This document shows, in pieces, positions 4,007 to 60,836 of a stretch of 64,000 nucleotides of DNA; position 1 is the stretch's first letter; every line of letters starts with the position of its first letter. The DNA lies in assembly GCF_002795805.1 (NCBI RefSeq), contig NZ_CP018799.1, positions 2,473,001 to 2,537,000 of the forward strand, read 5' to 3'. Position numbers and translations under genes: made by a program. The DNA comes from Mariprofundus aestuarium. GTDB taxonomy: Bacteria; Pseudomonadota; Zetaproteobacteria; Mariprofundales; Mariprofundaceae. The notes under the pieces were generated by a model. That model had not been told where the DNA came from. It made no database searches and worked only from the letters and a program-made list of their open reading frames with translations.

Positions 4007-6094
4007 TTGCTGTTTATCGATCTCAGTCTCAATCCCGTTTTGAACACACACGATTCCGATATAAGCCATCCAGTGACCCTGCATAACCACGTCTTCCGTG
4101 GAGCCAACCGTCTGCGCGTCGCTCTGGTCGGCCAGCACAACAGCGGCAAGAGCACTATCTTCCATGCCGTTGCCAGTACCAGCTATCGCACAGGCAAGCT
4201 GGCCGGCACCCATAAACCCTATGCCGAATGTCCGGTTCAGATCGGTGTAGATGAGATACACCTGGTTGACCTGCCCGACCTACAATCGCTGCGCAATCTG
4301 TCCGGCGATGATCTTGAGGCACTGAAGTACCTTCTATGGGGAGATGCGCGTCCCCTGGTATCACGGCATGAGCGCTCTGAACCGCCGGTCCCATTTTCCA
4401 GACCGGATGTGCTGGTCTATGTCATTGATGCCAGTGCTCTACAGCAGAGCCTTGAACTCGCGCTTGAATTACCGGAGCTGGGACTGCCGGTAGTCGTGGC
4501 GCTAAATATGATGGATGAAGCACACCGTAAAGGTGTCGAGATCGACATTGAGGGGCTTGCAGAAAAGCTCGGAGTACCTGTCATTCCTACTGTTGCCCTC
4601 AAGGGCCACGGCCTGACCGAGCTGTTTAACAAGGTGTTAAACTGTGCCCGCAAACGCAGCTGTCCGCTGCCGCAATCGCCCAATCCCCATATCATGGAGT
4701 GGGCCTCAAAGATGCAGCACAATGTGGATCTGCCCGAAATCCAGAATGCTTTCGCTATGCCTAAAAACCAGCTGACAATGCACCTGCTGGAGGCGGACAG
4801 CTACTTCATGCATGAACTGGAAAGCCATTTCCCGGATGCGCTTGCCAAGGTCAAGGCGCTGCAGAATGAGGCGCTGGAGGAACTTCCCCGCGCCCTTTCT
4901 GAAGAGGTTGAGGCAGACCGGCATCACCGTGCCGCCTGCCTGTTTGAAAGCGTTGCCAAACTTATGCACAAGCCGAAGGTCAGCTGGGAGGAGCGACTGG
5001 ACATGCTCTTCCTACACCCCAGTTGGGGGCTGGTCGGGTCACTCACCGTTTTTGCGGCGGTGCTGTTCATGGTGTTTGAGGTCAGCACCACACTGGATGC
5101 GATGTCGGCTGCCCGACTCGCCGATATGGTATCCAGCTGGCAGCCGGATACAGCTGCAGGTGTGGTTGGTCGGGCAGTCATTGATGGCCTGATCGGACTG
5201 GTCGGCATTGTTGTCCCCTACATGCTACCGCTGCTGCTGATGCTCGTCGCACTGGAGGAGTCCGGCATCATGCATCGCATTGCCTTTGTCGTGGACCGCT
5301 TTTTTCATGCTATCGGCCTGCACGGCAAAGTGGCTGTACCATTCCTACTGGGGCTTGGCTGCAACGTGCCCGGTATTGCTGCCACCAAGGGACTGACCAG
5401 CGGTCGCGATCGCGTCGTCTCATCCTTGCTCATCACCTTCGTCCCCTGCTCGGCCCGTTCAGCAATCGTGCTGGCACTGGGGGCAAAATATCTTGGTGTC
5501 ATGGGGGTTTTCCTACTGTTCGCACTGAGCTTGCTGGTAATTGCGATTCTCGGCCGCCTGCTCTCGCACCGTTACCCTGAGATCAGCCCCGGTATTATTC
5601 AGGAGATCCCAAGTTATGCATGGCCGAAGTGGCGTCCACTGCTGCACTCCACATGGAACCGTTCCAGCGACATTCTTACCATCGTCACGCCGCTTCTCGT
5701 CGGCGGCAGCGTAATCCTTGCCCTGCTGCAGTATTTCGGCGCCGATGCCTGGATCAATACTGCACTTGCTCCGATTACCTACTGGATGCTGGGGCTGCCG
5801 GTTGTTCTCGGTGTTCCGATCCTGTTTGGCGTTCTGCGAAAAGAGCTCTCCCTGGTGATGATCTATCAGGCGCTCGGCACCTTCGAAGTGGGGCTGGCGA
5901 TGGACTGGATCCAGATCACCACCTTCCTCGTCTTCCTGCTCTTTTATATTCCCTGCATCTCCACCTTCGCGGTGATGCTGAAGGTGATTGGCAGAAAGGA
6001 GGCGCTCTTCTCTATCGCCCTCTCTATCGGCGTTGCTCTGATCACCGCAGTGGTTGTCCGACTCTCCCTAAGCGGAATCGAAAACCTTCTCTAA
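4007..6094 (+). CDS. feoB: FeoB-family ferrous iron transporter with variant G domain
   Basis: A 695 aa protein with an N-terminal GTPase domain and a polytopic membrane domain. G1 is GQHNSGKS, G4 is NMMD, and the membrane part carries both gate motifs: GLGCNVPGIAAT with VPCSAR, and GVLRKELSLVM with FYIPCISTF. FeoB moves Fe2+ across the inner membrane. Unlike standard FeoB, G3 reads DLPD instead of DLPG, and the switch region before it is altered. No feoA or feoC is adjacent. The start is probably the TTG at 4007, with AAGGA about ten bases upstream; a GTG at 4073 is an alternative. Either start is divergent from the Kef-type gene. Confidence 0.85.
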   Translation: MLFIDLSLNPVLNTHDSDISHPVTLHNHVFRGANRLRVALVGQHNSGKSTIFHAVASTSYRTGKLAGTHKPYAECPVQIGVDEIHLVDLPDLQSLRNLSGDDLEALKYLLWGDARPLVSRHERSEPPVPFSRPDVLVYVIDASALQQSLELALELPELGLPVVVALNMMDEAHRKGVEIDIEGLAEKLGVPVIPTVALKGHGLTELFNKVLNCARKRSCPLPQSPNPHIMEWASKMQHNVDLPEIQNAFAMPKNQLTMHLLEADSYFMHELESHFPDALAKVKALQNEALEELPRALSEEVEADRHHRAACLFESVAKLMHKPKVSWEERLDMLFLHPSWGLVGSLTVFAAVLFMVFEVSTTLDAMSAARLADMVSSWQPDTAAGVVGRAVIDGLIGLVGIVVPYMLPLLLMLVALEESGIMHRIAFVVDRFFHAIGLHGKVAVPFLLGLGCNVPGIAATKGLTSGRDRVVSSLLITFVPCSARSAIVLALGAKYLGVMGVFLLFALSLLVIAILGRLLSHRYPEISPGIIQEIPSYAWPKWRPLLHSTWNRSSDILTIVTPLLVGGSVILALLQYFGADAWINTALAPITYWMLGLPVVLGVPILFGVLRKELSLVMIYQALGTFEVGLAMDWIQITTFLVFLLFYIPCISTFAVMLKVIGRKEALFSIALSIGVALITAVVVRLSLSGIENLL

Positions 6095-6128: not shown

Positions 6129-6560
6129 TTAATTGAGTTCAGGTGGCAGCAAGGGTGGTTGACCATGTTTTTCTCGCATTTTATTGACTGCATTAAGAAT
6201 CAGTGGGCGCCCGATAATCCAGCACTCCAGTCTGTATTTTCCGGGATAGTTCATGATCATCAGGCCAAACAGGATGCAAAGCAGCCCCTGCCCAGGCGTG
6301 AACAGCATGATAAAGCCTGCCACAAGCAGAATCGCACCGAGCATATTCTTAAGAATCACCAGCATCAGCTTCACCAGTGGATGGCGCAGGTCACCGTCCA
6401 GCTTGTGGCGGTTATGATGGTGAAAATAGTCGGCAGGTATTCTGGCGACGATAAACGGAATCGAGGCCAGACTGATGACAAACATCGCGATCGAGCCAAC
6501 CGCAATCCAGAGGCCGTAGGCATCGAAGAACGCCTTTCCTTGTGTAATCAGCTCTTCCAT
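6129..6560 (-). CDS. PGPGW-family transmembrane protein
   Basis: A 143 aa membrane protein with an N-terminal hydrophobic segment (residues 15-40) and two closely spaced segments around residues 70-105. The region FTPGQGLLCILFGLMIMNYP matches the glycine/proline-rich motif of the PGPGW putative transmembrane family, whose function is unknown. A His/Arg/Lys-rich stretch (HHHNRHK) lies in the first loop. It is eight bases downstream of the RquA-like gene on the same strand, so the two are probably cotranscribed. Nothing in the sequence shows a catalytic role. Confidence 0.75.
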   Translation of the reverse strand: MEELITQGKAFFDAYGLWIAVGSIAMFVISLASIPFIVARIPADYFHHHNRHKLDGDLRHPLVKLMLVILKNMLGAILLVAGFIMLFTPGQGLLCILFGLMIMNYPGKYRLECWIIGRPLILNAVNKMREKHGQPPLLPPELN

Positions 6561-6568
6561 ATTTCTCC

Positions 6569-7297
6569 TTAACCGCCCCGCTTTGAAATGGTAAATTCGG
6601 TTACGCGATAGAAAGCCGAAAAGATATCCGTGTGCGACGTAACCCTCACCTCTTTTTCGTACGCCTCCCCCAGTTCATTGAGAAGAGCCCCGATATCCTC
6701 GTGCCAGAAACTCTCCAGGAAAGGCTCAAGTTGGGTCGTCAGCCAACGGATGGGGAGAAAGCGATAGAGCCAGTGATGCTTTGGCAAAGCTCCATACTCG
6801 GTCACCAATAGCACCCCGCCATCGCCGAGCACACGCATACATTCGGCGAGCGTGTTTCTTCTCGCCTCAGGCGGCATCTCATGCAACAGAAAAAAGAGCA
6901 CTATGGTTGAAAAGCTGTTCGTTTTATAACCCAGCGCTTCGGCATTCATGCGGGTAATGCCGAGTTTCTGTCCGGTTTCAACCTTACTGGCCGCCAGCGA
7001 AAGCTGCACGTCGGCCACATCGGTGATGTGCAGCGACGATGGCTGCACCTGCCGAATCAGGTTGGGCGTTAAGGAGCCGTAAACACAGGTAAGCTGCAGC
7101 ACGCGATCCAGCGGAGCCTCTTTTAACCGCTCCAGCGTAGCGTTCATCAGATTTTTGTACTGGCCGAAGAGAATCGCATTGATGATTGGCTGGTGATCGA
7201 AGAGCCATACCGATTTTGGCCAGAGGTAGGCCCACCAGTAGTGGCGCACCAGGTAGATGGGCATGCCATCAAGAAAGTGGCGGTAGAATTTAAACAC
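6569..7297 (-). CDS. rquA: RquA-like methyltransferase-fold protein (possible rhodoquinone biosynthesis)
   Basis: A 242 aa class I SAM-dependent methyltransferase-fold protein. The start (MPIYLVRHYWWAYLWPKSV, FDHQPIINAILFGQY) and the end (SAFYRVTEF) match my recollection of RquA, which converts ubiquinone to rhodoquinone by exchanging a methoxy for an amino group. Where ordinary UbiE/UbiG methyltransferases have an acidic residue and GxGxG in motif I, this protein has LQLTCVYGSLTPNL. RquA is known for a changed motif of this VYG type. Rhodoquinone serves fumarate reduction and reverse electron flow at low potential. The assignment rests on motif memory, not on a search; a generic methyltransferase is the alternative. 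It is likely cotranscribed with the PGPGW gene downstream. Confidence 0.65.
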   Translation of the reverse strand: MFKFYRHFLDGMPIYLVRHYWWAYLWPKSVWLFDHQPIINAILFGQYKNLMNATLERLKEAPLDRVLQLTCVYGSLTPNLIRQVQPSSLHITDVADVQLSLAASKVETGQKLGITRMNAEALGYKTNSFSTIVLFFLLHEMPPEARRNTLAECMRVLGDGGVLLVTEYGALPKHHWLYRFLPIRWLTTQLEPFLESFWHEDIGALLNELGEAYEKEVRVTSHTDIFSAFYRVTEFTISKRGG

Positions 7298-7329
7298 TGT
7301 CGGAATACTTAACTAAACCCAGTCATTCG

Positions 7330-8565
7330 TCAGCCCTGACCCTGATCTTCTGGCATAAGGTGGCCAAAGCGACTGTAGTACCACTTCAGAATAAACGGCG
7401 GAAGTATGGTAGTGGCAGCAATGGTAATAATCATGACCGCATAGAGGGTGTTATCGAAGACTCCGGAGACACGGCCCAACTCGGCAAATATCAACCCCAC
7501 CTCGGCACGCGGAATCATTGCAAGGCCAACTACCCATCGGAAATGGAGCGGTTCATCGATCATAAATGCGCCGGCAAGCTTGCTGGCCATTGCCAGCACG
7601 ATAAACACGAAACTCATCATTAATACAGAGGCTGAACCCCAGTCGACCTCCTGCAGGTTGAGCGACAACCCCACAGTAACAAAGAAGATCGGCGTAAATA
7701 GCTGGATAATCGGCTTCATCGACTCATCAATGCGGCGAACAAATTTTCCATCGGACTGGAACACCTTGGAAAGGGCAACGCCAAAAGGGAGGAAGAAACG
7801 GCGAGAGAGGGCAAGGCCCGCTGCAAAACCGCCAAGCAGCGCAGGTGCCCCGACAAGATGGGCGAGCCAGGCAAAAAATAGCACCAGTGATACGATGGTG
7901 GTTGGGATTAATCCTGTAATGCGGCTCTGGCTGTCGAAGCGACCGATCGTTTCCGCCATGATCTTGGCCACCACTGGCGCGAGAATCATGAAGATGGCGA
8001 TAAATGCAAGAACCTTACTGGCATTCGCCAAGCTGATGCCGCCATAAACTGAGAATTCGTAAAGCAGTGCCAATAGTACTACGCCCATTACATCATCAAG
8101 CACTGCTGCCCCCAGCACTACCTGTGCCTCCTGGGAATGTTGCCGATTAAGGTCGCGAAGTACGCGCACCGTCACGCCGATACTGGTAGCTGTAAGGGTG
8201 CCACCAACAAATAGAGAGAGAAGCATAGAGAGGTCAAAAACCAGATAGGCAAGGATAAAACCGCCGACAAATGGAGCGACAAAACCACCGAGCGCCACAA
8301 CCACCGCCTTGCTTCCACGGTTCGCCAACCGGGAGATATCGGTATCAAGCCCCACCTCAAAGAGCAAGAGAATCAGCCCAATCTCGGCCAGTGTCTGAAT
8401 GATATCATTGAGCCCTACCCAGCCCAGCAGGCTGGGACCGAGAACAATGCCGGCCAGCATCTCCCCCATTACCGGAGGTATCTTCAGCCACGCAGCCAGT
8501 TCGCCAAAGGTTCTGGCTACGATAAGGATCAGAACCAGTGAGAGGAAAAAGTCACTCGCTTCCAC
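7330..8565 (-). CDS. CPA2-family cation:proton antiporter
   Basis: A 411 aa membrane antiporter with about 12 segments and no cytosolic nucleotide-binding domain, which separates it from the Kef-type gene at 2.2-3.9 kb. Motifs include PPVMGEMLAGIVLGPSLLG near the start, GLDTD, GTLTATSIGVTVRVL around residue 140 and GAAVLDDVMGVV around residue 160, where the conserved paired aspartates form the ion site in NapA/GerN-type exchangers. The likely role is Na+ or K+ export against protons. It lies 32 bases upstream of the RquA-like gene on the same strand. Confidence 0.88.
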   Translation of the reverse strand: MEASDFFLSLVLILIVARTFGELAAWLKIPPVMGEMLAGIVLGPSLLGWVGLNDIIQTLAEIGLILLLFEVGLDTDISRLANRGSKAVVVALGGFVAPFVGGFILAYLVFDLSMLLSLFVGGTLTATSIGVTVRVLRDLNRQHSQEAQVVLGAAVLDDVMGVVLLALLYEFSVYGGISLANASKVLAFIAIFMILAPVVAKIMAETIGRFDSQSRITGLIPTTIVSLVLFFAWLAHLVGAPALLGGFAAGLALSRRFFLPFGVALSKVFQSDGKFVRRIDESMKPIIQLFTPIFFVTVGLSLNLQEVDWGSASVLMMSFVFIVLAMASKLAGAFMIDEPLHFRWVVGLAMIPRAEVGLIFAELGRVSGVFDNTLYAVMIITIAATTILPPFILKWYYSRFGHLMPEDQGQG

Positions 8566-8930
8566 GGCTATTTTTCCCCTACCATCGCATGTTTCATCGA
8601 GCTGTTTTCACTGAAAGTGACCAGTTCTTATTTCTCACATTCAAAGCGATCATCTCCTCTTCCAGGGGTCTATCCAGTCAGCATAGGAGGCCATTTGCTC
8701 ATGGCGGCTGCCTACTTCTTATCATAGTGCAAACAGCACGTTAACGACACCCAGCAGTAACCTTGTCGTTTAAACCATGCCTATAGCAAATGATGCTTGC
8801 TGAAAAAGAGATGTACTGCTTTGGACTTAAGCCTTAAGCGAGCTGAAAGCGACATGCATTACCTGTAAGAGAATAAGAACTTTTTTGCATAACCCAGAGC
8901 TACCATTAGATGCAGATCAGTCGTAATGTT
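8566..8930. other. 365-base intergenic region between arsJ and the CPA2 antiporter gene
   Basis: Both flanking genes are on the minus strand, so this region should hold the 3' untranslated part of the ars unit and the promoter of the antiporter operon. On the minus strand I see a TATGAT -10-like hexamer near 8730 without a convincing -35. A short repeated TTAAGCC/TTAAGC motif lies near 8830. No ORF of useful length, tRNA or strong terminator hairpin is visible. Confidence 0.5.
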
Positions 8931-10142
8931 TCACAGTTCCTTGCGTCGTTTCGCCTGCTTCGGAAGCAGCAGTGAAATCAGTGCCGCGACCAGCACAAAT
9001 CCAGCTGACCACCACAAGCAGCCGCTTAACCCCTGACTCTGGTAGACCCAGCCGGATAACACCGTACCTGCCAGCCGTCCTCCGGCATTAGCCATATAGT
9101 AGAAGCCGACATTCATCGAAACATGCTCACGTTCCGACCATGAGACGATCAGATAGGAGTGAACCGCTGAATTGATAGCAAAAACAATTCCGAACAAGGC
9201 CAGACCAACGACAATCACACTCTGAAGATCCCACTCCTGCCCCATGGCCAGCGCGATGGCTATTGGAACCGCTGCCAGAGTAAAGGCTGTGCCTGCCACC
9301 ATACCTCCATCCGGATTTGATGATGTTACTCTGCGTAGAATGGATGGCGCACTGCCCTGCACAAAGCCGTAGCCGATTACCCACAAAGCAAAGAAGGACC
9401 CCACCTCAGTAAAGCTCCAGCCAAGCTCGGCGTAGAGGAAAACGGGAAGACCAACCACAAACCAGACATCACGTGCCCCGAAAAGGAAAAAGCGGGCCGC
9501 AGATAAGCGGTTCACCTGAGGAGACTTGGAAAAGACCTGCGAGAACTTCGGCTTGGATGAGGATTTGCCCAACTCACCCGGTAACAGACTCCAGGTGATA
9601 ACCAACGCCAGCAGAAGCAGTGCCGAGAGTGCGAAGAGTGCACCGCGGAACTCAAGCCATGCCAACAGCAGCGCACCGATAAAGAAGCCGGCACCTTTCA
9701 GCGCATTCTTCGAGCCAGTCAGGACAGCCACCCAACGGAACAGCTTCTTCTCCGACTTATCAGGTAGGAACAGTTTCACGCCTGCCTTCGCACTCATCTT
9801 GTTCAGATCTTTGGCAATACCTGAAAATGCCTGTGCCGCCATCACATAACCCACCGACAGCCATGCCTCGGGCACGGCAAGTGCCATCAAGGCACCGATC
9901 TGCATGATCATGCCAATATTCATGCAGCGATTCAGACCGATGCGAGCACCTAGCCAGCCGCCAATGAGATTGGTGACAATGCCGAAGAACTCATAGAAGA
10001 GAAACAGCATCGCAATCTCAAGCGGGCTATAACCCAGTTGATGGAAATAGAGCACCACCAGCATGCGTATCGCACCATCGGTAATGGTGAATGCCCAGTA
10101 GCCACCTGTGACGGTCAGGTAATGGCGAAAACCCTGATTCAC
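8931..10142 (-). CDS. arsJ: Organoarsenical efflux MFS transporter ArsJ
   Basis: A 403 aa major facilitator protein with about 12 membrane segments. The N-terminus (YWAFTITDGAIRMLVVLYFH) and the segment AFSGIAKDLNKMSAKAGVK are characteristic of ArsJ. The family exports 1-arseno-3-phosphoglycerate, the unstable product made when GAPDH uses arsenate in place of phosphate; expulsion and breakdown outside give arsenate resistance. Its immediate upstream neighbour is a GAPDH gene, with a gap of 13 bases, which is the diagnostic pairing for this pathway. It is the last gene of the minus-strand ars unit. Confidence 0.93.
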   Translation of the reverse strand: MNQGFRHYLTVTGGYWAFTITDGAIRMLVVLYFHQLGYSPLEIAMLFLFYEFFGIVTNLIGGWLGARIGLNRCMNIGMIMQIGALMALAVPEAWLSVGYVMAAQAFSGIAKDLNKMSAKAGVKLFLPDKSEKKLFRWVAVLTGSKNALKGAGFFIGALLLAWLEFRGALFALSALLLLALVITWSLLPGELGKSSSKPKFSQVFSKSPQVNRLSAARFFLFGARDVWFVVGLPVFLYAELGWSFTEVGSFFALWVIGYGFVQGSAPSILRRVTSSNPDGGMVAGTAFTLAAVPIAIALAMGQEWDLQSVIVVGLALFGIVFAINSAVHSYLIVSWSEREHVSMNVGFYYMANAGGRLAGTVLSGWVYQSQGLSGCLWWSAGFVLVAALISLLLPKQAKRRKEL

Positions 10143-10155
10143 GACAGGGGCCTAA

Positions 10156-11154
10156 TCAAAGTGAGTCAGCCACCTTAGCGGTCAACTCCATCATGCGGTT
10201 CACATATCCCCACTCGTTATCGTACCAGATGTAGAGTTTCACCTGCGTACCATTGATCACCATGGTACTCGGCGCATCAATGATCGATGAACGGGCATCA
10301 TTGGTATAATCAACCGAAACTAGGGGGCGCTCCTCATATCCGAGAATACCTTTCAACGCATTCTCAGATGCCTCTCGAAACAGCTCATTGATCTCTTCGG
10401 CTGTCACCTCACGCTCCACTTCAAGCACAAGGTCGGTCAGTGACGCATTCAACAGCGGCACGCGCACGGCAAGACCGTTCAGTTTGCCTTCAAGTTCCGG
10501 GAAAATTTTCGTAATTGCCTTGGCAGAACCGGTACTGGTCGGAATCAGTGACTGGCCGCAGGAGCGAGCCCGGCGCAGATCCTTATGCCCTCTGTCGACA
10601 ATGGTCTGGGTATTGGTGATATCGTGAATGGTTGTCATGCAGCCGTGTTTGATGCCGACCTTCTCATGCATCACCTTGATCACTGGGGCCAGACAGTTGG
10701 TGGTACATGATGCAGCGGTCAGCAGATGATTCTGCTCAGGATCATAAAGGTGATCGTTAATACCATATACGATATTCAGTGCGCCATCGACCGGTGCCGC
10801 AACAATAACCTTCTTCACACCCTGATCGAAATAGGCCTGCAACTCTTCCACCTTGCGAAACTTGCCAGTTGCCTCAATAACGATATCACAACCCGACCAG
10901 TCGGTTTCTCCAATCGCCTGGTTGCCTGAGTGAGCAATCTGCCTCCCATCAATCAGCATGGTTTCGCCATCAGCCTCGCAATCATAAGGCCATGTACCAT
11001 GCACTGAATCGAATTTCAGCAGGTGGGCGGAACACTCGGCGCCACAAGCAGTTTCGTTGACCTGCACAATGTCAAAACCCTGCATCTGCCAACCGGCCCT
11101 GAGTCCCAGGCGCCCCATGCGTCCAAGTCCGTTAATGCCAACTTTTATTGTCAT
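10156..11154 (-). CDS. Glyceraldehyde-3-phosphate dehydrogenase of the arsenate-resistance type
   Basis: A 332 aa GAPDH with the N-terminal NAD-binding motif [18 protein letters not shown], the catalytic SCTTNC motif around residue 150 and the C-terminal WYDNEWGY. Position between acr3 and arsJ indicates that it forms 1-arseno-3-phosphoglycerate from arsenate for ArsJ to export, rather than serving central glycolysis. I chose the ATG at 11154, giving MTIKVGING with AAGGAAA upstream. An upstream ATG at 11190 is in frame and would overlap the end of acr3, adding 12 residues of no family character. Confidence 0.92.
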
Positions 11155-11167
11155 TTCAGTTTCCTTT

Positions 11168-12208
11168 TTATTTTGTAATCGGCCGTTCATACCAGCCTCT
11201 GCTGCGATTCACGATTGAGACCAGTGTTAACATCACCGGCACCTCAACCAGTACCCCAACAACAGTCGCCAATGCAGCTCCGGATTCAAAACCAAACAGT
11301 GCAATTGCCGTTGCTACTGCCAGTTCGAAAAAGTTAGAGGCACCAATCAATGCTGATGGCGCTGCAATATTATGACGTACTCCAAGCCTGCGGTTCAACA
11401 GATAGGCAAAGCTGAAAGTTGCATAGACTTGAATCACAATAGGCACAGCCAGAATGGCAATCACCAGCGGTTGTTGTAGAATTTCCTTTCCCTGAAAAGC
11501 GAAGAGCAGCACCACGGTAAGAAGTAACGCAGCCATGGACAGAGGGTCCAGGCGCTGCAAAACAACATCAAGCACTCCCCGCTTAAGAAGCTGCATTCTC
11601 CAGATATATGCCACCATCACCGGAACTACAATGTAGAGTAAAACTGAAAGTAACAAGGTATCCCAGGGAACAGTTACCGAAGCAACCCCAAGTAGCAACG
11701 CAACGATAGGGGCGAAGGCAAAGACCATTACCACATCATTGAGCGCCACTTGAGAAAGTGTGAATTGGGCATCTCCATGGGTCAATTTCGACCAGACAAA
11801 CACCATTGCCGTACACGGTGCTGCGGATAAAATCACTAAACCCGCGAAATAATCGTCCAACATCTGCGCATCAAGAAAAGAAGAAAATAGATGATAAATA
11901 GAGATGTATCCCAGCAGGGCCATGAAAAATGGCTTGAACAACCAGTTAATGCCAAGGGTAACTGCAATGCCGCGCCGGTGATCCCATACCTTATGCAGTG
12001 ATGAATAATCGATCTTGAGCAGCATCGGCAGAATCATGGCCCAGATCAGGATTGCTACCGGCAGATTGATATGAGCAACTTCCATTACACCCAGAATCTG
12101 GAACAGGCCTGGAAAAAATGAACCCAGAATAATGCCGACAACAATAGAGAGAAACACCCAGAGCGTTAGATAGCGCGCAAACAGCCCCATAGATTTTGAA
12201 TCAGACAT
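11168..12208 (-). CDS. acr3: ACR3-family arsenite efflux transporter
   Basis: A 346 aa inner-membrane carrier of about ten segments that exports arsenite, As(III), coupled to proton uptake. The hallmark motif [11 protein letters not shown], with the essential cysteine, lies near residue 130, followed by [12 protein letters not shown]. These separate ACR3 from the unrelated ArsB. An AGGAGTT ribosome site lies three bases before the ATG. A promoter with an embedded inverted repeat sits directly upstream (12229-12256), so acr3-GAPDH-arsJ may also be transcribed independently of arsR. It ends 13 bases before the GAPDH start. Confidence 0.95.
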
Positions 12209-12228
12209 AATAACTCCTGAACAGGAAT

Positions 12229-12256
12229 ATGATATCCGCTTATCCGGATATGTAAA
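12229..12256 (-). promoter_or_regulatory. Internal ars promoter with inverted-repeat operator
   Basis: Read on the minus strand, a TTTACA -35 (12251-12256) and a TATCAT -10 (12229-12234) are separated by 16 bases. The inverted repeat ATATCCG - 6 bases - CGGATAT (12232-12251) occupies the spacer and touches both hexamers. A dyad placed like this is what one expects of an ArsR-type repressor site that blocks RNA polymerase. Binding by the ArsR encoded just upstream is inferred. Confidence 0.6.
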
Positions 12257-12264
12257 TCACAATG

Positions 12265-12483
12265 CTAGGTAGACTTACAGCAGCCAGCCCCCTGCTGAAT
12301 GGGAGAACATGGCACATCACCGTAAGAACAGAATACGCAGCAGTCTCCCAGCTTGGCTCTTAACAGGGCATGGCACTGCTTACATTCATAAAACCACTGG
12401 CACGCAGACATACGCTCTTCACAGCAAAAGCCACAGGAGGGGCAGGTGATGGTGGAGGTAAGCTTCAGCTTATTGTCTATCAC
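12265..12483 (-). CDS. GDCCVxC-domain cysteine-rich small protein
   Basis: A 72 aa protein with 13 cysteines. It contains CPSCGFCCEE near the start, CQWFYECKQCH in the middle, the signature GDCCVFCSYGDVPCSPIQ and a terminal GCCKS. I recognise the GDCCVxC family, small proteins often found beside arsenic or mercury genes; some relatives carry selenocysteine in this motif. Here all positions are encoded as ordinary cysteine. The role is unproven; metal(loid) binding or delivery is a reasonable inference from the cysteines and from the position between arsR and acr3. Confidence 0.78.
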   Translation of the reverse strand: MIDNKLKLTSTITCPSCGFCCEERMSACQWFYECKQCHALLRAKLGDCCVFCSYGDVPCSPIQQGAGCCKST

Positions 12484-12490
12484 CTTAAAT

Positions 12491-12808
12491 TCAGCAGGAG
12501 CATGATCTATTCAGCCGCTCTGCATCCTGCAGCAGCAGGACTTCGGTCAAACTGGAGCGCGTCAGCAGGGTGATCAGTTCGGTGGGTGTATCATCCATCA
12601 GTTGGTAGTACATCCATTTGCCATCTCGCCGTGCACTTATCAGCCCAGCCTGGCGCAAGACTCCCAGATGGCGTGAAACCGTACTCTGCGGAAGCAACAG
12701 CGCTTCAGTCAGATGACAGACGCACTGCTCCCCTGATGTGGCAAGCAGCGAAACCAGACGTAAACGCACAGGTTCACCCAGCGCCTTGAATATCTGATTC
12801 AAGCGCAT
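12491..12808 (-). CDS. arsR: ArsR-family transcriptional repressor
   Basis: A 105 aa winged-helix protein. The helix before the recognition element carries the metal-binding signature QCVCHL (ELCVCDL in E. coli ArsR), followed by LPQSTVSRHLGVLRQAGLISARRDGKW, the helix-turn-helix and wing. An extra cysteine pair (CSC) ends the protein. ArsR repressors leave DNA when As(III) binds. It is the first gene of the ars unit, seven bases before the GDCCVxC gene. Its own promoter is not obvious; a TAAAAT hexamer lies near 12840 on the minus strand. Confidence 0.93.
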   Translation of the reverse strand: MRLNQIFKALGEPVRLRLVSLLATSGEQCVCHLTEALLLPQSTVSRHLGVLRQAGLISARRDGKWMYYQLMDDTPTELITLLTRSSLTEVLLLQDAERLNRSCSC

Positions 12809-12850
12809 CAGCAGTTTTTAAAATAAAAGATTTCTAGCATTTTACAGCGA

Positions 12851-13318
12851 TCACTCCTGCACATCCCCAACCAGTCCGTGTGGCATCGCAACCAGCACAG
12901 AACAGGAGGCATGGCGAACAACGCGCTCAGCAGTAGAACCGAGTAGCATATGCTCCAGCACTCCTTGACGGCCATGGCGGCCAACCACGATCAGGTCGGC
13001 AGAAAGTCTCTCGGCAATATCGCAGATCGCCCGTGCCGGGTCGCTCACCGCATCTTCCAGGTGTGTAGTGATGGGAAGATCAACGCTTCCAGCCTGTTCG
13101 ACAAGCCGTTTGGTCGCACCTTCATGCTGTGCTTTACTGATCTCATCCAGTGGAGAGATCGAAACCATGTCTGTTTCAAAGTAGAGGGAGGGGTCAATCA
13201 CGTGCAGCAGATGCACCTCTGCATCAAACTGCTTTGCCAGCACACATGCGCGCCTGAGCGCTTCGCTGGACTGCTCCGAAAAATCGGTCGGCACAACTAT
13301 CGTTCCATTATTGATCAT
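12851..13318 (-). CDS. Universal stress protein, UspA family
   Basis: A 155 aa single-domain UspA protein: VVPTDFSEQSSEAL at the N-terminus, and the ATP-binding pattern GRHGRQG followed after nine residues by GST (residues 115-131), which places it in the nucleotide-binding branch. Such proteins modulate stress survival; no specific partner is visible. It lies 42 bases upstream of arsR on the same strand, so readthrough into the ars unit is possible, but no arsenic link is known for the family. Confidence 0.9.
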   Translation of the reverse strand: MINNGTIVVPTDFSEQSSEALRRACVLAKQFDAEVHLLHVIDPSLYFETDMVSISPLDEISKAQHEGATKRLVEQAGSVDLPITTHLEDAVSDPARAICDIAERLSADLIVVGRHGRQGVLEHMLLGSTAERVVRHASCSVLVAMPHGLVGDVQE

Positions 13319-13388
13319 GACTTCCCTCCTGCATGGGTGGATAACCTATTGATAGCACGTTTATGATCAATTGACTATGGCCTCAAAG

Positions 13389-13418
13389 GATAAAGGGAGG
13401 CAAAAGCCTCCCTTTATC
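13389..13418 (-). terminator. Hairpin terminator after argG
   Basis: A perfect 13-bp stem (13389-13401 with 13406-13418) and a four-base loop lie 22 bases after the argG stop. The arm that would follow the loop ends in CTTTATC and is followed by CTTTG rather than a long T-run. It sits between argG and the universal stress gene and is the only strong fold there. Confidence 0.6.
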
Positions 13419-13440
13419 ACCCATTTACATCGGACTCTAT

Positions 13441-14661
13441 TTACTTGCGAGCCAGCGCGCTCATACGCAGGCGCAGTGCATTAAGCTTGATAAAACCGCC
13501 CGCATCCTTCTGGTCGTAGGCACCCTGATCATCTTCAAAGGTGCAGAGGCGCTCATCAAACATAGACTGCTCAGAGCGACGACCCACCACGATGGCATTG
13601 CCCTTGTAGAGTTTCAGATGCACATCACCGTTAACAAAGACCTGCGTGTAGTCGATGGCCTGCTGCAGCATTTCGCGCTCGGCTGCAAACCAGTAACCGT
13701 TGTAGACCATCTTGGCATAACGCGGCATCAGCTCATCTTTCAGGTGCGCTGCTTCACGGTCCAGCGTGATTGACTCAATGGCACGATGTGCCTTAAGCAT
13801 AATAGTGCCACCCGGCGTCTCGTAGCAGCCGCGTGACTTCATGCCAACATAGCGGTTTTCAACAATATCAATACGGCCAATACCGTGCTTGCCACCCAGG
13901 CGGTTAAGCTCGGTCAATACCTGCGCAGGGGTCATCGCAACACCATTAATCGCCACGATATCGCCAGATTTATATTTCAGTTCGATATATTCAGGGATAT
14001 CTGGTGCTGCTTCAGGGGATACACTCCAGCGCCACATGGATTCGGATGGCTCAGTCCATGGATCCTCAAGGTCGTATCCCTCATAGGAGATATGCAGCAG
14101 GTTGGCATCCATTGAGTATGGCGACTTGGAACCTTCGCGCTTACGCTCAACCGGAATACCGTGTTTTTCAGCATAATTGAGCATATCTTCACGTGACACC
14201 AGATCCCATTCGCGCCAAGGTGCAATCACCTTCACATCAGGCTTCAGGGCATAAAAACCAAACTCGAAACGCACCTGATCGTTACCCTTGCCGGTTGCAC
14301 CATGCGATACCGCATCGGCACCTTCAGCATTAGCGATCTCAATCATACGCTTGGCGATCAGCGGACGTGCGATAGAGGTGCCCAGCAGGTATTCGCCTTC
14401 GTAGATGGCGTTGGCACGAAACATCGGGAAGACATAATCGCGCACAAACTCTTCGCGCATATCCTCGATATAGATCGATTTCACACCACCGGCAACCGCC
14501 TTGGCGCGCGCATCCTCAACCTCGTCACCCTGTCCGAGATCAGCGGTGAAGGTCACCACCTCACAATCGTAGGTGTCCTCCAGCCACTTCAGGATAATAG
14601 AGGTATCCAAACCTCCAGAGTAAGCAAGTACAGCCTTCTTTACATCGGAATGCGACATCAT
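13441..14661 (-). CDS. argG: Argininosuccinate synthase
   Basis: Condenses citrulline and aspartate with ATP to give argininosuccinate, the seventh step of arginine synthesis. The 406 aa length is typical of the long type. The PP-loop ATP motif AYSGGLDTS is at residues 13-21, with [15 protein letters not shown] around residue 120 and [13 protein letters not shown] around 180. Two adjacent ATG codons (14661, 14658) are possible starts, with TGAGGG upstream. It lies 128 bases downstream of argF on the same strand. Confidence 0.96.
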
Positions 14662-25351: not shown

Positions 25352-25560
25352 TTGACATCCTCCCCACCCAAAATGCTTTGGATGGGGATTCCCAAAACTG
25401 CTCACGCGGCTAACGGGAGAGGTTGCATTGCTGCGCCTCCAGTTCCTGCTTCGTCGGGAGCGTAACTGCCTATCCCTCCACAGGCTTTAACGGCATGCCC
25501 TGCCGCCAGAATGTTTTTTTGCAGCGTTCACATCGGCGTTTTCGGAATGGCCGCAGGCCA
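25352..25560 (-). ncRNA. Predicted omega RNA region of the tnpB element
   Basis: In IS605-type elements the 3' end of tnpB and the right end are transcribed as a guide RNA (omega RNA) that ends with the flanking host sequence. The right end here has the expected structure. The guide would be the minus-strand bases just outside the element, roughly 25332-25351. The 5' limit given is nominal. There is no expression evidence, and the partner TnpB is shortened. Confidence 0.35.
25362..25387 (-). repeat. Right-end subterminal hairpin of the IS element
   Basis: The stem pairs 25362-25372 with 25377-25387 around a four-base loop, 11 bp with one G-T wobble when read on the minus strand. It is followed by GAGGATGTCAA, the usual end of OrfB-only IS605 elements. 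Such hairpins are recognised by TnpA and form the 3' end of the omega RNA scaffold. Confidence 0.65.
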
Positions 25561-26488
25561 TGCATGAAAACTGCGCTTGAGACGGCCGGTTCACCTTATC
25601 GGTGAACCCACAATCTGAGCATTTCCGTGATGTGTTGCGCGGATTGATCAGGATCACCTGACCTCCGCGCCAACGCTGCTTGTACTCAAGTTGCCGACCG
25701 AACTCGAACCACCCCATATCGAGTATGGATCGGTTGAGCCCTGCTTTTTGCCGGAATTTGGAGCCTGGCTCATCGAGAGAGCCTTTTGCAGATGCCGTCA
25801 TATTTTTGGTGCGCAAATCTTCGAGCACGATCACCGCGTGGCTTTTGCTGATGATCGTTGTTGCTTTGTGAATTGCGTCGTTTCGGGCATCTGCGATTTT
25901 GATATGCAGGCGAGTGATGCGTTCGCGCTGCCTCATCCAGTTATTTGAAAACTTGGTTTTGCGAGCCAGTCTTTTGAGTGGTTTTGAGCCTTCAAAAGTC
26001 GATCCATCGGACAGGACTGCGAGATTTACCACACCCCGATCAATACCGACTGCAGTTGATAATTCATGGACTGGTTCAGCGACTTCAATCGCTGTCAGGA
26101 TGGAGACAAACCAATGCTTGCCTCTGCGCGATACTGTTGCGCTTCGGATTGACCCTTCGATCTCACGCGACAAACGCATACGAACCCATCCGATTTTCGG
26201 GAGAAAAACGGATGATCCTTCAAGCCGGATAGATTGTGGAAACCTGAATGAATCGCCCATGCCTTTTTTCTTGAATTGAGGCGTGCGTTTCAAAGGCTGT
26301 TTGCGATCAAATCCATCGCTGAAAGCCCGATCCAGATCCTTGAGGCACTGCTGCAAAACCTGCGATTGGGCTGTTGCGAGAAAGCCAAACTCATCCGATT
26401 TCTTCCAGAAAGTCAGCCACCAGGCAGACTCATTGTAGCGCATGATCAGCTGTTTATCCCTAAGCCGCTGAAGGTTCATGGAAAGCAT
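25487..26488 (-). CDS. tnpB: TnpB/OrfB RNA-guided nuclease of IS605 type, 5'-shortened
   Basis: A 333 aa OrfB. The RuvC-like aspartate is in VGIDRGVVNLAV near residue 150, the glutamate in IVLEDLRTKNM near 220, the zinc ribbon in CSDCGFTDK...CMACGH near 290-310, and the last aspartate in ADVNAAKK. TnpB proteins normally begin with about 17 residues of the KAYKFRLYPT type before the GC(C/R)RFVWN motif. Here the codons for AGCRRFLWNK (26489-26518) continue directly upstream into the left-end hairpin, so the normal start is missing. The first available ATG is at 26488. The catalytic residues are intact but the N-terminal strand is lost, so activity is doubtful. Confidence 0.8.
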   Translation of the reverse strand: MLSMNLQRLRDKQLIMRYNESAWWLTFWKKSDEFGFLATAQSQVLQQCLKDLDRAFSDGFDRKQPLKRTPQFKKKGMGDSFRFPQSIRLEGSSVFLPKIGWVRMRLSREIEGSIRSATVSRRGKHWFVSILTAIEVAEPVHELSTAVGIDRGVVNLAVLSDGSTFEGSKPLKRLARKTKFSNNWMRQRERITRLHIKIADARNDAIHKATTIISKSHAVIVLEDLRTKNMTASAKGSLDEPGSKFRQKAGLNRSILDMGWFEFGRQLEYKQRWRGGQVILINPRNTSRKCSDCGFTDKVNRPSQAQFSCMACGHSENADVNAAKKHSGGRACR

Positions 26489-59872: not shown

Positions 59873-60736
59873 TTAACCCTTACGCTTCTTCTCCATCATC
59901 TCATGGATGATTGGTGACAGAATAAGCTCCATGGCAAACATCATCTTACCAGCAGGAACTACAATCGTGTTGCGGCGGGACATGTGCGAACCGTCCAGCA
60001 TGGCCGACAGTGCTGGGAAATCGATTCCCCACTGTTCTGGCTTGCGGATGCGGATCACGACGACACTCTCGTCTGGCGTTGGAACATCGCGTGCGATGAA
60101 TGGATTAGAGGTATCAACCAGAGGTACACGCTGGAAGTTGATATCGGTATTGCTGAACTGCGGTGTAATGAAGTGAACGTAGTCGTGCATACGGCTAAGA
60201 ATATTCTCGACCACAGCCTCCGGAGAGTAGCCGCGCATTGCAGTGTCCCGGTGGATTTTCTGAATCCACTCTAGGTTTACAACAGGTACAATACCCAGCA
60301 GGAGGTCGGTATAAGGAAGAACCTCTTCTACGCCACCGTGAAGGCCCTCATAAAACAGAAGATCTGATCCTTCGCCAACGTCGCGCCAGTCGGTAAACTT
60401 ACCTGGCTCAACACCATAAATCTTAGCCTCTTCATCATCATGAATATAGGTGCGCGCAAGACCCTTGCCAGTCTCACCGTAGGATTTAAAAAGATCGGCA
60501 ATATTATCAAACAGGTTAGCTTCGTCAGAGAAGTGGCTCAGGCGCTTACCTTTAGCTTCAAATTCTTTTGATTTCTCACGGAAGGTGAGACGATCAAAGC
60601 GGTGGAAGCAATCGCCCTCTACAACTGCAGGCGTTACTTTCTCACGCCTGAAAATGTGCTCGAGTGCAACCTTGGCTGTACTGGTACCTGCTCCTGATGA
60701 ACCCGTTACGGAAATCACTGGATGTTTTACTGACAT
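59873..60736 (-). CDS. prkB: Phosphoribulokinase
   Basis: Phosphorylates ribulose-5-phosphate to ribulose-1,5-bisphosphate, the Calvin-cycle step feeding RuBisCO. The 287 aa protein is the proteobacterial class I type. The P-loop is GSSGAGTSTAK near residue 12, followed by EGDCFHRFDR near 42, FYEGLHGGV near 130 and the C-terminal MSRRNTIVVPAGKMMFAMEL. The ATG at 60736 has GGGAGA upstream. It stands alone with its own promoter and terminator, away from any RuBisCO gene in the window. It is strong evidence for autotrophy. Confidence 0.96.
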   Translation of the reverse strand: MSVKHPVISVTGSSGAGTSTAKVALEHIFRREKVTPAVVEGDCFHRFDRLTFREKSKEFEAKGKRLSHFSDEANLFDNIADLFKSYGETGKGLARTYIHDDEEAKIYGVEPGKFTDWRDVGEGSDLLFYEGLHGGVEEVLPYTDLLLGIVPVVNLEWIQKIHRDTAMRGYSPEAVVENILSRMHDYVHFITPQFSNTDINFQRVPLVDTSNPFIARDVPTPDESVVVIRIRKPEQWGIDFPALSAMLDGSHMSRRNTIVVPAGKMMFAMELILSPIIHEMMEKKRKG

Positions 60737-60836
60737 GACATCTCCCAAATAAACTCTTTAAAATCAAGGGCTTACAGAGTCCCTCCCCTGATTCAACCCC
60801 TGTCTTTCTGCGCTACTACCCTCAAAAAGGATGGCC

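Follow-up and report, generated by a model that had tools for sequence, protein, structure and literature searches.

An RquA-like gene in a 64,000-nucleotide stretch of the genome of the marine iron oxidiser Mariprofundus aestuarium (this whole stretch being hereafter called the window) encodes a protein that, judged from its sequence, belongs to a new RquA subfamily and is not a standard RquA. Our best guess, towards which we lean only slightly, is that this divergent protein works like RquA and converts ubiquinone to rhodoquinone. The genome is a single contig of 2,537,610 bp, of which the window, with a G+C content of 52%, covers positions 2473001-2537000. The features discussed below are collected in Table 1.

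Table 1. Positions, within the window, of the genes and residues considered in the analysis
Feature	Position	Strand	Evidence and remarks
RquA-like SAM-binding protein, putative member of the divergent RquA subfamily	6569-7297	-	242 aa, GTG start; NF038261, 177.5 bits
PGPGW membrane protein	6129-6560	-	143 aa; PF09656, E 1.3e-8; 8 bp downstream of the RquA-like gene
Sodium/hydrogen (CPA2-type) antiporter	7330-8565	-	PF00999, E 4e-64; 32 bp upstream of the RquA-like gene
Calvin-cycle kinase	59873-60748		PF00485
Altered motif I, residues 68-74 (QLTCVYG)	7076-7096	-	Alignment
Asp93, counterpart of R. rubrum Asp118 (SAM ribose)	7019-7021	-	Alignment
Asn118, counterpart of R. rubrum Asp143	6944-6946	-	Alignment

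The gene and its operon

A search of the genome found one copy of the RquA-like gene. The gene at the same place in genome G047 (locus L016) begins with ATG, whereas that of the window begins with GTG. Compared between Mariprofundus species, the gene has a dN/dS of 0.05-0.10, and such low values, which reflect purifying selection, indicate that it is a working gene. It probably forms one operon with the PGPGW gene and the antiporter gene, which are located on the same strand. The antiporter gene adjoins the RquA-like gene in genomes G000, G047 and G049, with a partial match in G057.

The preliminary description had pointed to a Calvin-cycle kinase in the window and to a link between the RquA-like protein and an adjacent PGPGW membrane protein. 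Both genes are indeed there, but among the fetched loci the PGPGW gene adjoins the RquA-like gene in six Mariprofundus genomes only, and the PGPGW protein was for this reason rejected as a conserved partner. A role as a non-enzymatic, quinone- or SAM-binding accessory factor, acting perhaps together with the PGPGW protein, would agree with the divergence of the RquA-like protein and with its local operon; we consider it very improbable, because the catalytic-loop residues are conserved, purifying selection is strong, and the PGPGW link is so narrowly distributed. Also observed in the window were a FeoB-type ferrous iron transporter gene (4007-6094), which is convergent with the rquA operon and listed with a TTG start, and a TnpB-type (OrfB_IS605 / Cas12f1-like) gene on the minus strand (25487-26488).

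Family scores, phylogeny and occurrence

The NCBIfam equivalog model for RquA, NF038261, matches the window protein over model positions 1-203 of 218 with an E-value of 3e-52, and the score given in Table 1 narrowly clears the curated cut-off of 175 bits. The model was run on 78 class genomes and gave about 29 matches of full length and two partial ones: full-length proteins score 155-186 bits and the background at most 33 bits, with nothing in between except the two fragments at about 90 bits. The cut-off is exceeded in 15 of the 78 genomes, and near relatives fall just under it. Across 397 phylum genomes, the scores of standard RquA proteins lie at 279-317 bits, with a single one at 225, and those of the class's own proteins at 156-186 bits. 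Ordinary methyltransferases score less than 33 bits. On the strength of these scores in class and phylum genomes, the window protein is assigned to the RquA superfamily, in a lower-scoring tier. Sequence searches against plasmids and against the PDB returned no close relative of the window protein.

In a first tree the UbiE/UbiG outgroup was too distant and the deep order was unresolved; the final tree was built with nearer methyltransferases as the outgroup and with the longest row left out, and the divergent clade was then resolved. In this tree one side of a branch with a support of 100/98 and a length of 1.78 consists of the window protein together with 24 relatives, which come from Zeta-, Beta-, Gamma-, Alpha- and Deltaproteobacteria. 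The window protein lies outside all standard RquA rows, including the standard RquA of genome G082, and the standard RquA proteins are not resolved as a single clade (support 23/0). Identity between divergent and standard RquA is 23-40% (median 31), and the median identity is 51% inside the divergent group and 60% inside the standard group. The comparison with RquA and with UbiE/UbiG that had been suggested for the protein therefore gave a double answer, in that it was not placed with UbiE/UbiG and does not fall in the standard RquA clade either. An ordinary small-molecule methyltransferase that resembles RquA would be consistent with the generic methyltransferase domain returned by Pfam and with the view that RquA itself derives from UbiE-like enzymes; however, both the tree and the model scores set the window protein apart from UbiE and other methyltransferases, and the acidic-GxGxG motif is missing, so that we regard this explanation as improbable.

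Two RquA groups, A and B, from seven orders were described by Stairs 2018 (PMC5953543), and neither Mariprofundales nor Gallionellales is among these orders. The RquA of M. marinus is reported to be functional, and M. marinus cells to contain RQ8 (PMC11707229). The divergent clade spans Zetaproteobacteria, Gallionellaceae, Tenderia-like gammaproteobacteria, some alphaproteobacteria and two ubiquinone-making deltaproteobacteria. The best 80 of 144 relatives in named genomes, which were kept for the analysis, come mainly from iron oxidisers and groups rich in chemolithoautotrophs, namely Mariprofundus, Ghiorsea, Gallionella, Sideroxydans, Ferrigenium, Tenderia, unclassified gammaproteobacteria and Rhodospirillaceae bins. 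A standard RquA beside the divergent type was found in none of the 30 carrier genomes checked. Some single cases were observed: a lone 'Emcibacter' bin, perhaps the result of a binning error, groups among Mariprofundus; one Mariprofundus bin (G055) has two divergent rquA copies, on contigs C8 and C4, with 180.4 and 166.5 bits; and the divergent rquA of locus L027 (G041, C96) is broken by an in-frame TAG, which is either a pseudogene mutation or a sequencing error.

The neighbours of divergent rquA in Mariprofundus are unlike those in its alpha-, beta- and gammaproteobacterial relatives, where genes of 2-oxoacid:ferredoxin oxidoreductases are among its neighbours. In three loci of unclassified gammaproteobacteria (L145, at 7121-13712, L146 and L151), the gene is flanked on one side by glutamate dehydrogenase and on the other by a membrane protein without a Pfam match, a 2-oxoacid:ferredoxin oxidoreductase, an NfnB/GltD-like protein, malate dehydrogenase and citrate synthase; divergent rquA heads a compact TCA-type gene row in these loci. 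An alphaproteobacterial bin (L148) has divergent rquA followed by a DHODB-type FeS oxidoreductase, an NfnB-like protein and oxidoreductase subunits, and in a Gallionella bin (L147) oxidoreductase genes of the same type adjoin divergent rquA on the opposite strand. In a further gammaproteobacterium (L150), an NADH-linked molybdopterin dehydrogenase is located immediately upstream. Clusters of the 2-oxoacid oxidoreductase alpha subunit and of the NfnB-like protein were each counted in 8 of the 80 loci, these being raw counts of loci that are not independent. These differing neighbourhoods, in three classes, point to low-potential electron metabolism.

Residues, quinone genes and proposed function

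The window protein was aligned with 33 standard RquA, 107 divergent and three UbiE sequences. Forty positions show a conservation of at least 90% in standard as well as in divergent RquA, and many of them are absent from UbiE; residues conserved in both RquA groups include Y20-W21-W22-A23-Y24, Q68, C71, Y73, Q98, H139-E140, Y168 and F193. The motif I stretch reads LQLTCVYG in the window protein, compared to LDLAGGTG in UbiE, and Q68, C71, Y73 and G74 are common to at least 90% of standard and of divergent RquA. The YWWAYL start and the H-E pair of RquA are both present. The RquA-type ends and the altered motif I in place of acidic-GxGxG, already mentioned in the preliminary description, were confirmed in this way by the alignment and the NF038261 match. 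The AlphaFold model of the protein (mean pLDDT 92) shows additional helices at the N-terminus of a class I SAM fold, and its top PDB match is SAM-bound yeast Coq5 (4obw), an enzyme to which RquA has been likened (PMC9814641).

The SAM-site aspartate pair of RquA is incomplete in the window protein. The first aspartate is kept as Asp93, which is identical in 106 of the 107 divergent sequences (the remaining one has a gap) and in all 33 standard RquA; the second is replaced by Asn118, and the 25 residues that separate the two positions equal the Asp118-Asp143 spacing of R. rubrum. Residue 118 is N in 98 of the 107 divergent sequences, D in 33 of 33 standard RquA, and N in E. coli UbiE. The R. 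rubrum residues were mutated jointly (D118A/D143A), with loss of activity (PMC9814641). The idea that Asn118 disables the enzyme was given up because the same residue is found at this place in E. coli UbiE, and for the same reason SAM binding is probably kept. Besides 118, positions 35, 39, 44, 46, 70, 167, 194, 229 and 231 are fixed differently in divergent and standard RquA, which gives ten such positions. Because of its place outside the standard clade and of the missing Asp143 counterpart, the window protein should not be filed as standard RquA.

The genome encodes UbiA (273.5 bits, the cut-off being 275.45), a UbiC-like protein, UbiE, UbiB, an SCP2 protein of the UbiT/UbiJ kind and two tandem UbiH-type hydroxylases, and ubiquinone synthesis genes have been reported for strains CP-5/CP-8 (PMC5513912). 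M. aestuarium is accordingly predicted to make ubiquinone by the O2-dependent route, and UbiU was not found in its genome. The UbiU pathway is present in 73 of 84 rquA genomes (PMC11707229). Among the 78 class genomes a strong UbiU match was found in four, three of which carry divergent rquA (an association that is not significant, Fisher p 0.30), and 28 of the 31 carrier zetaproteobacteria have no detectable ubiU. MenA is absent from all 78 class genomes. The sole other UbiA-family prenyltransferase found in the M. aestuarium genome lies inside a cytochrome oxidase gene cluster; the heme O synthase gene is also found in such clusters. Since the Ubi genes are present and MenA was not found, ubiquinone, made with oxygen, is the known quinone that would be available to the RquA-like enzyme. 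One SdhA, which matches the forward-type model TIGR01816 at 888 bits, represents succinate dehydrogenase together with SdhC and SdhB; a second flavoprotein with a strong match resembles NadB by length and sequence, and a separate fumarate reductase was not found in the genome. The fumarate reduction at low oxygen proposed earlier is weakened by these findings and by ubiquinone synthesis without UbiU.

We know of no member of the divergent clade that makes rhodoquinone. An rquA from the ubiquinone-making deltaproteobacterial class GWC2-55-46 yielded no rhodoquinone in E. coli (PMC13386864). In the class of genome G433, two rquA-like genes of at least 165 bits were found, one in G433 and one in G490; both belong to the divergent type, and each of the two genomes has ubiU. 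The tested gene probably belongs to the divergent clade, a link that we infer through G433 and G490; if it is one of these two genes, the clade's single experimental test was negative, with the caveats that apply to heterologous expression.

We infer the substrate, product, metal use and physiological role of divergent RquA. In the proposed mechanism, the 6569-7297 product would be a membrane-associated SAM-dependent enzyme that replaces a methoxy group of ubiquinone by an amino group from SAM, giving rhodoquinone; a microaerophilic iron oxidiser would thereby hold a low-potential quinone alongside ubiquinone, which could serve reductive steps or reverse electron flow at low oxygen. From the preliminary claim of rhodoquinone synthesis, the likeness to RquA stood, and ubiquinone, the substrate of RquA, is predicted to be made in the same cell. 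The rhodoquinone reading is further favoured by the narrowly passed cut-off, the 40 conserved positions, Coq5 as the top PDB match, the absence of MenA from the class, and the relatives' neighbour genes, which fit a low-potential carrier. It is weakened by the separate clade, the ten fixed differences (Asp143 to Asn among them), the negative E. coli test, the carriers without ubiU, and the presence of forward-type SdhA only. Rhodoquinone production by M. aestuarium is plausible on this sequence evidence.

Alternatively, the subfamily may alter ubiquinone or a late intermediate otherwise than RquA does, supplying iron oxidisers and other chemolithoautotrophs with another amino- or methyl-quinone. 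The fixed differences between two internally conserved clades, the branch length of 1.8, the probable negative rhodoquinone test and the occurrence centred on the iron-oxidiser genera and Tenderia would suit such an enzyme, but the altered motif I and the H-E pair, both hallmarks of RquA, are retained and we found no report of an unknown quinone in these organisms; we consider this rather unlikely. A broader proposal, which includes rhodoquinone and which we put forward tentatively, as something short of probable, is that microaerophilic iron oxidisers and their relatives are the centre of a third, undescribed RquA subfamily, by which aerobic chemolithoautotrophs make a modified ubiquinone, either rhodoquinone or a new aminoquinone; this quinone would serve reverse electron flow or ferredoxin-linked carbon metabolism and not classical fumarate respiration.

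If rhodoquinone or a sister quinone is made, neutrophilic iron oxidisers own a second, lower-potential quinone, which bears on the lifting of electrons from iron to NADH at low oxygen. Should the divergent proteins make neither, present genome annotation over-predicts rhodoquinone, part of the clade passing the NCBI cut-off for RquA. In either case, the divergent clade helps to mark the residues that define rhodoquinone synthesis.

Comparison with known systems

The window protein resembles RquA of R. rubrum and its relatives (NF038261; groups A and B of Stairs 2018) in length and domain layout, and shares with it the N-terminal YWWAYL, the CVYG motif I, the DVAPVQL block, FFLLHExP, LEPF..W and a tyrosine near the C-terminal end. 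It differs from standard RquA in its low identity (23-40%) and in its score (177 bits against 279-317), and its clade has N for D143, H for R35, F for W44, T for A70, E for D167, L for A194, F for L229 and R for Q231. With the C-methyltransferase UbiE/Coq5 it has in common the class I SAM fold, Asp93, Asn118 (as in E. coli UbiE) and the ubiquinone pathway; unlike UbiE/Coq5, it has lost the GxGxG motif I, has extra N-terminal helices and is only 17-21% identical, and the genome has a separate UbiE gene. A third RquA-like group (L196 in G510 and L197 in G496) has an RquA-like core and an SCAFGD motif I, and differs in that a hydrophobic N-terminal stretch replaces YWWAYL, in its scores of 136-146 bits, and in forming a separate tight branch.
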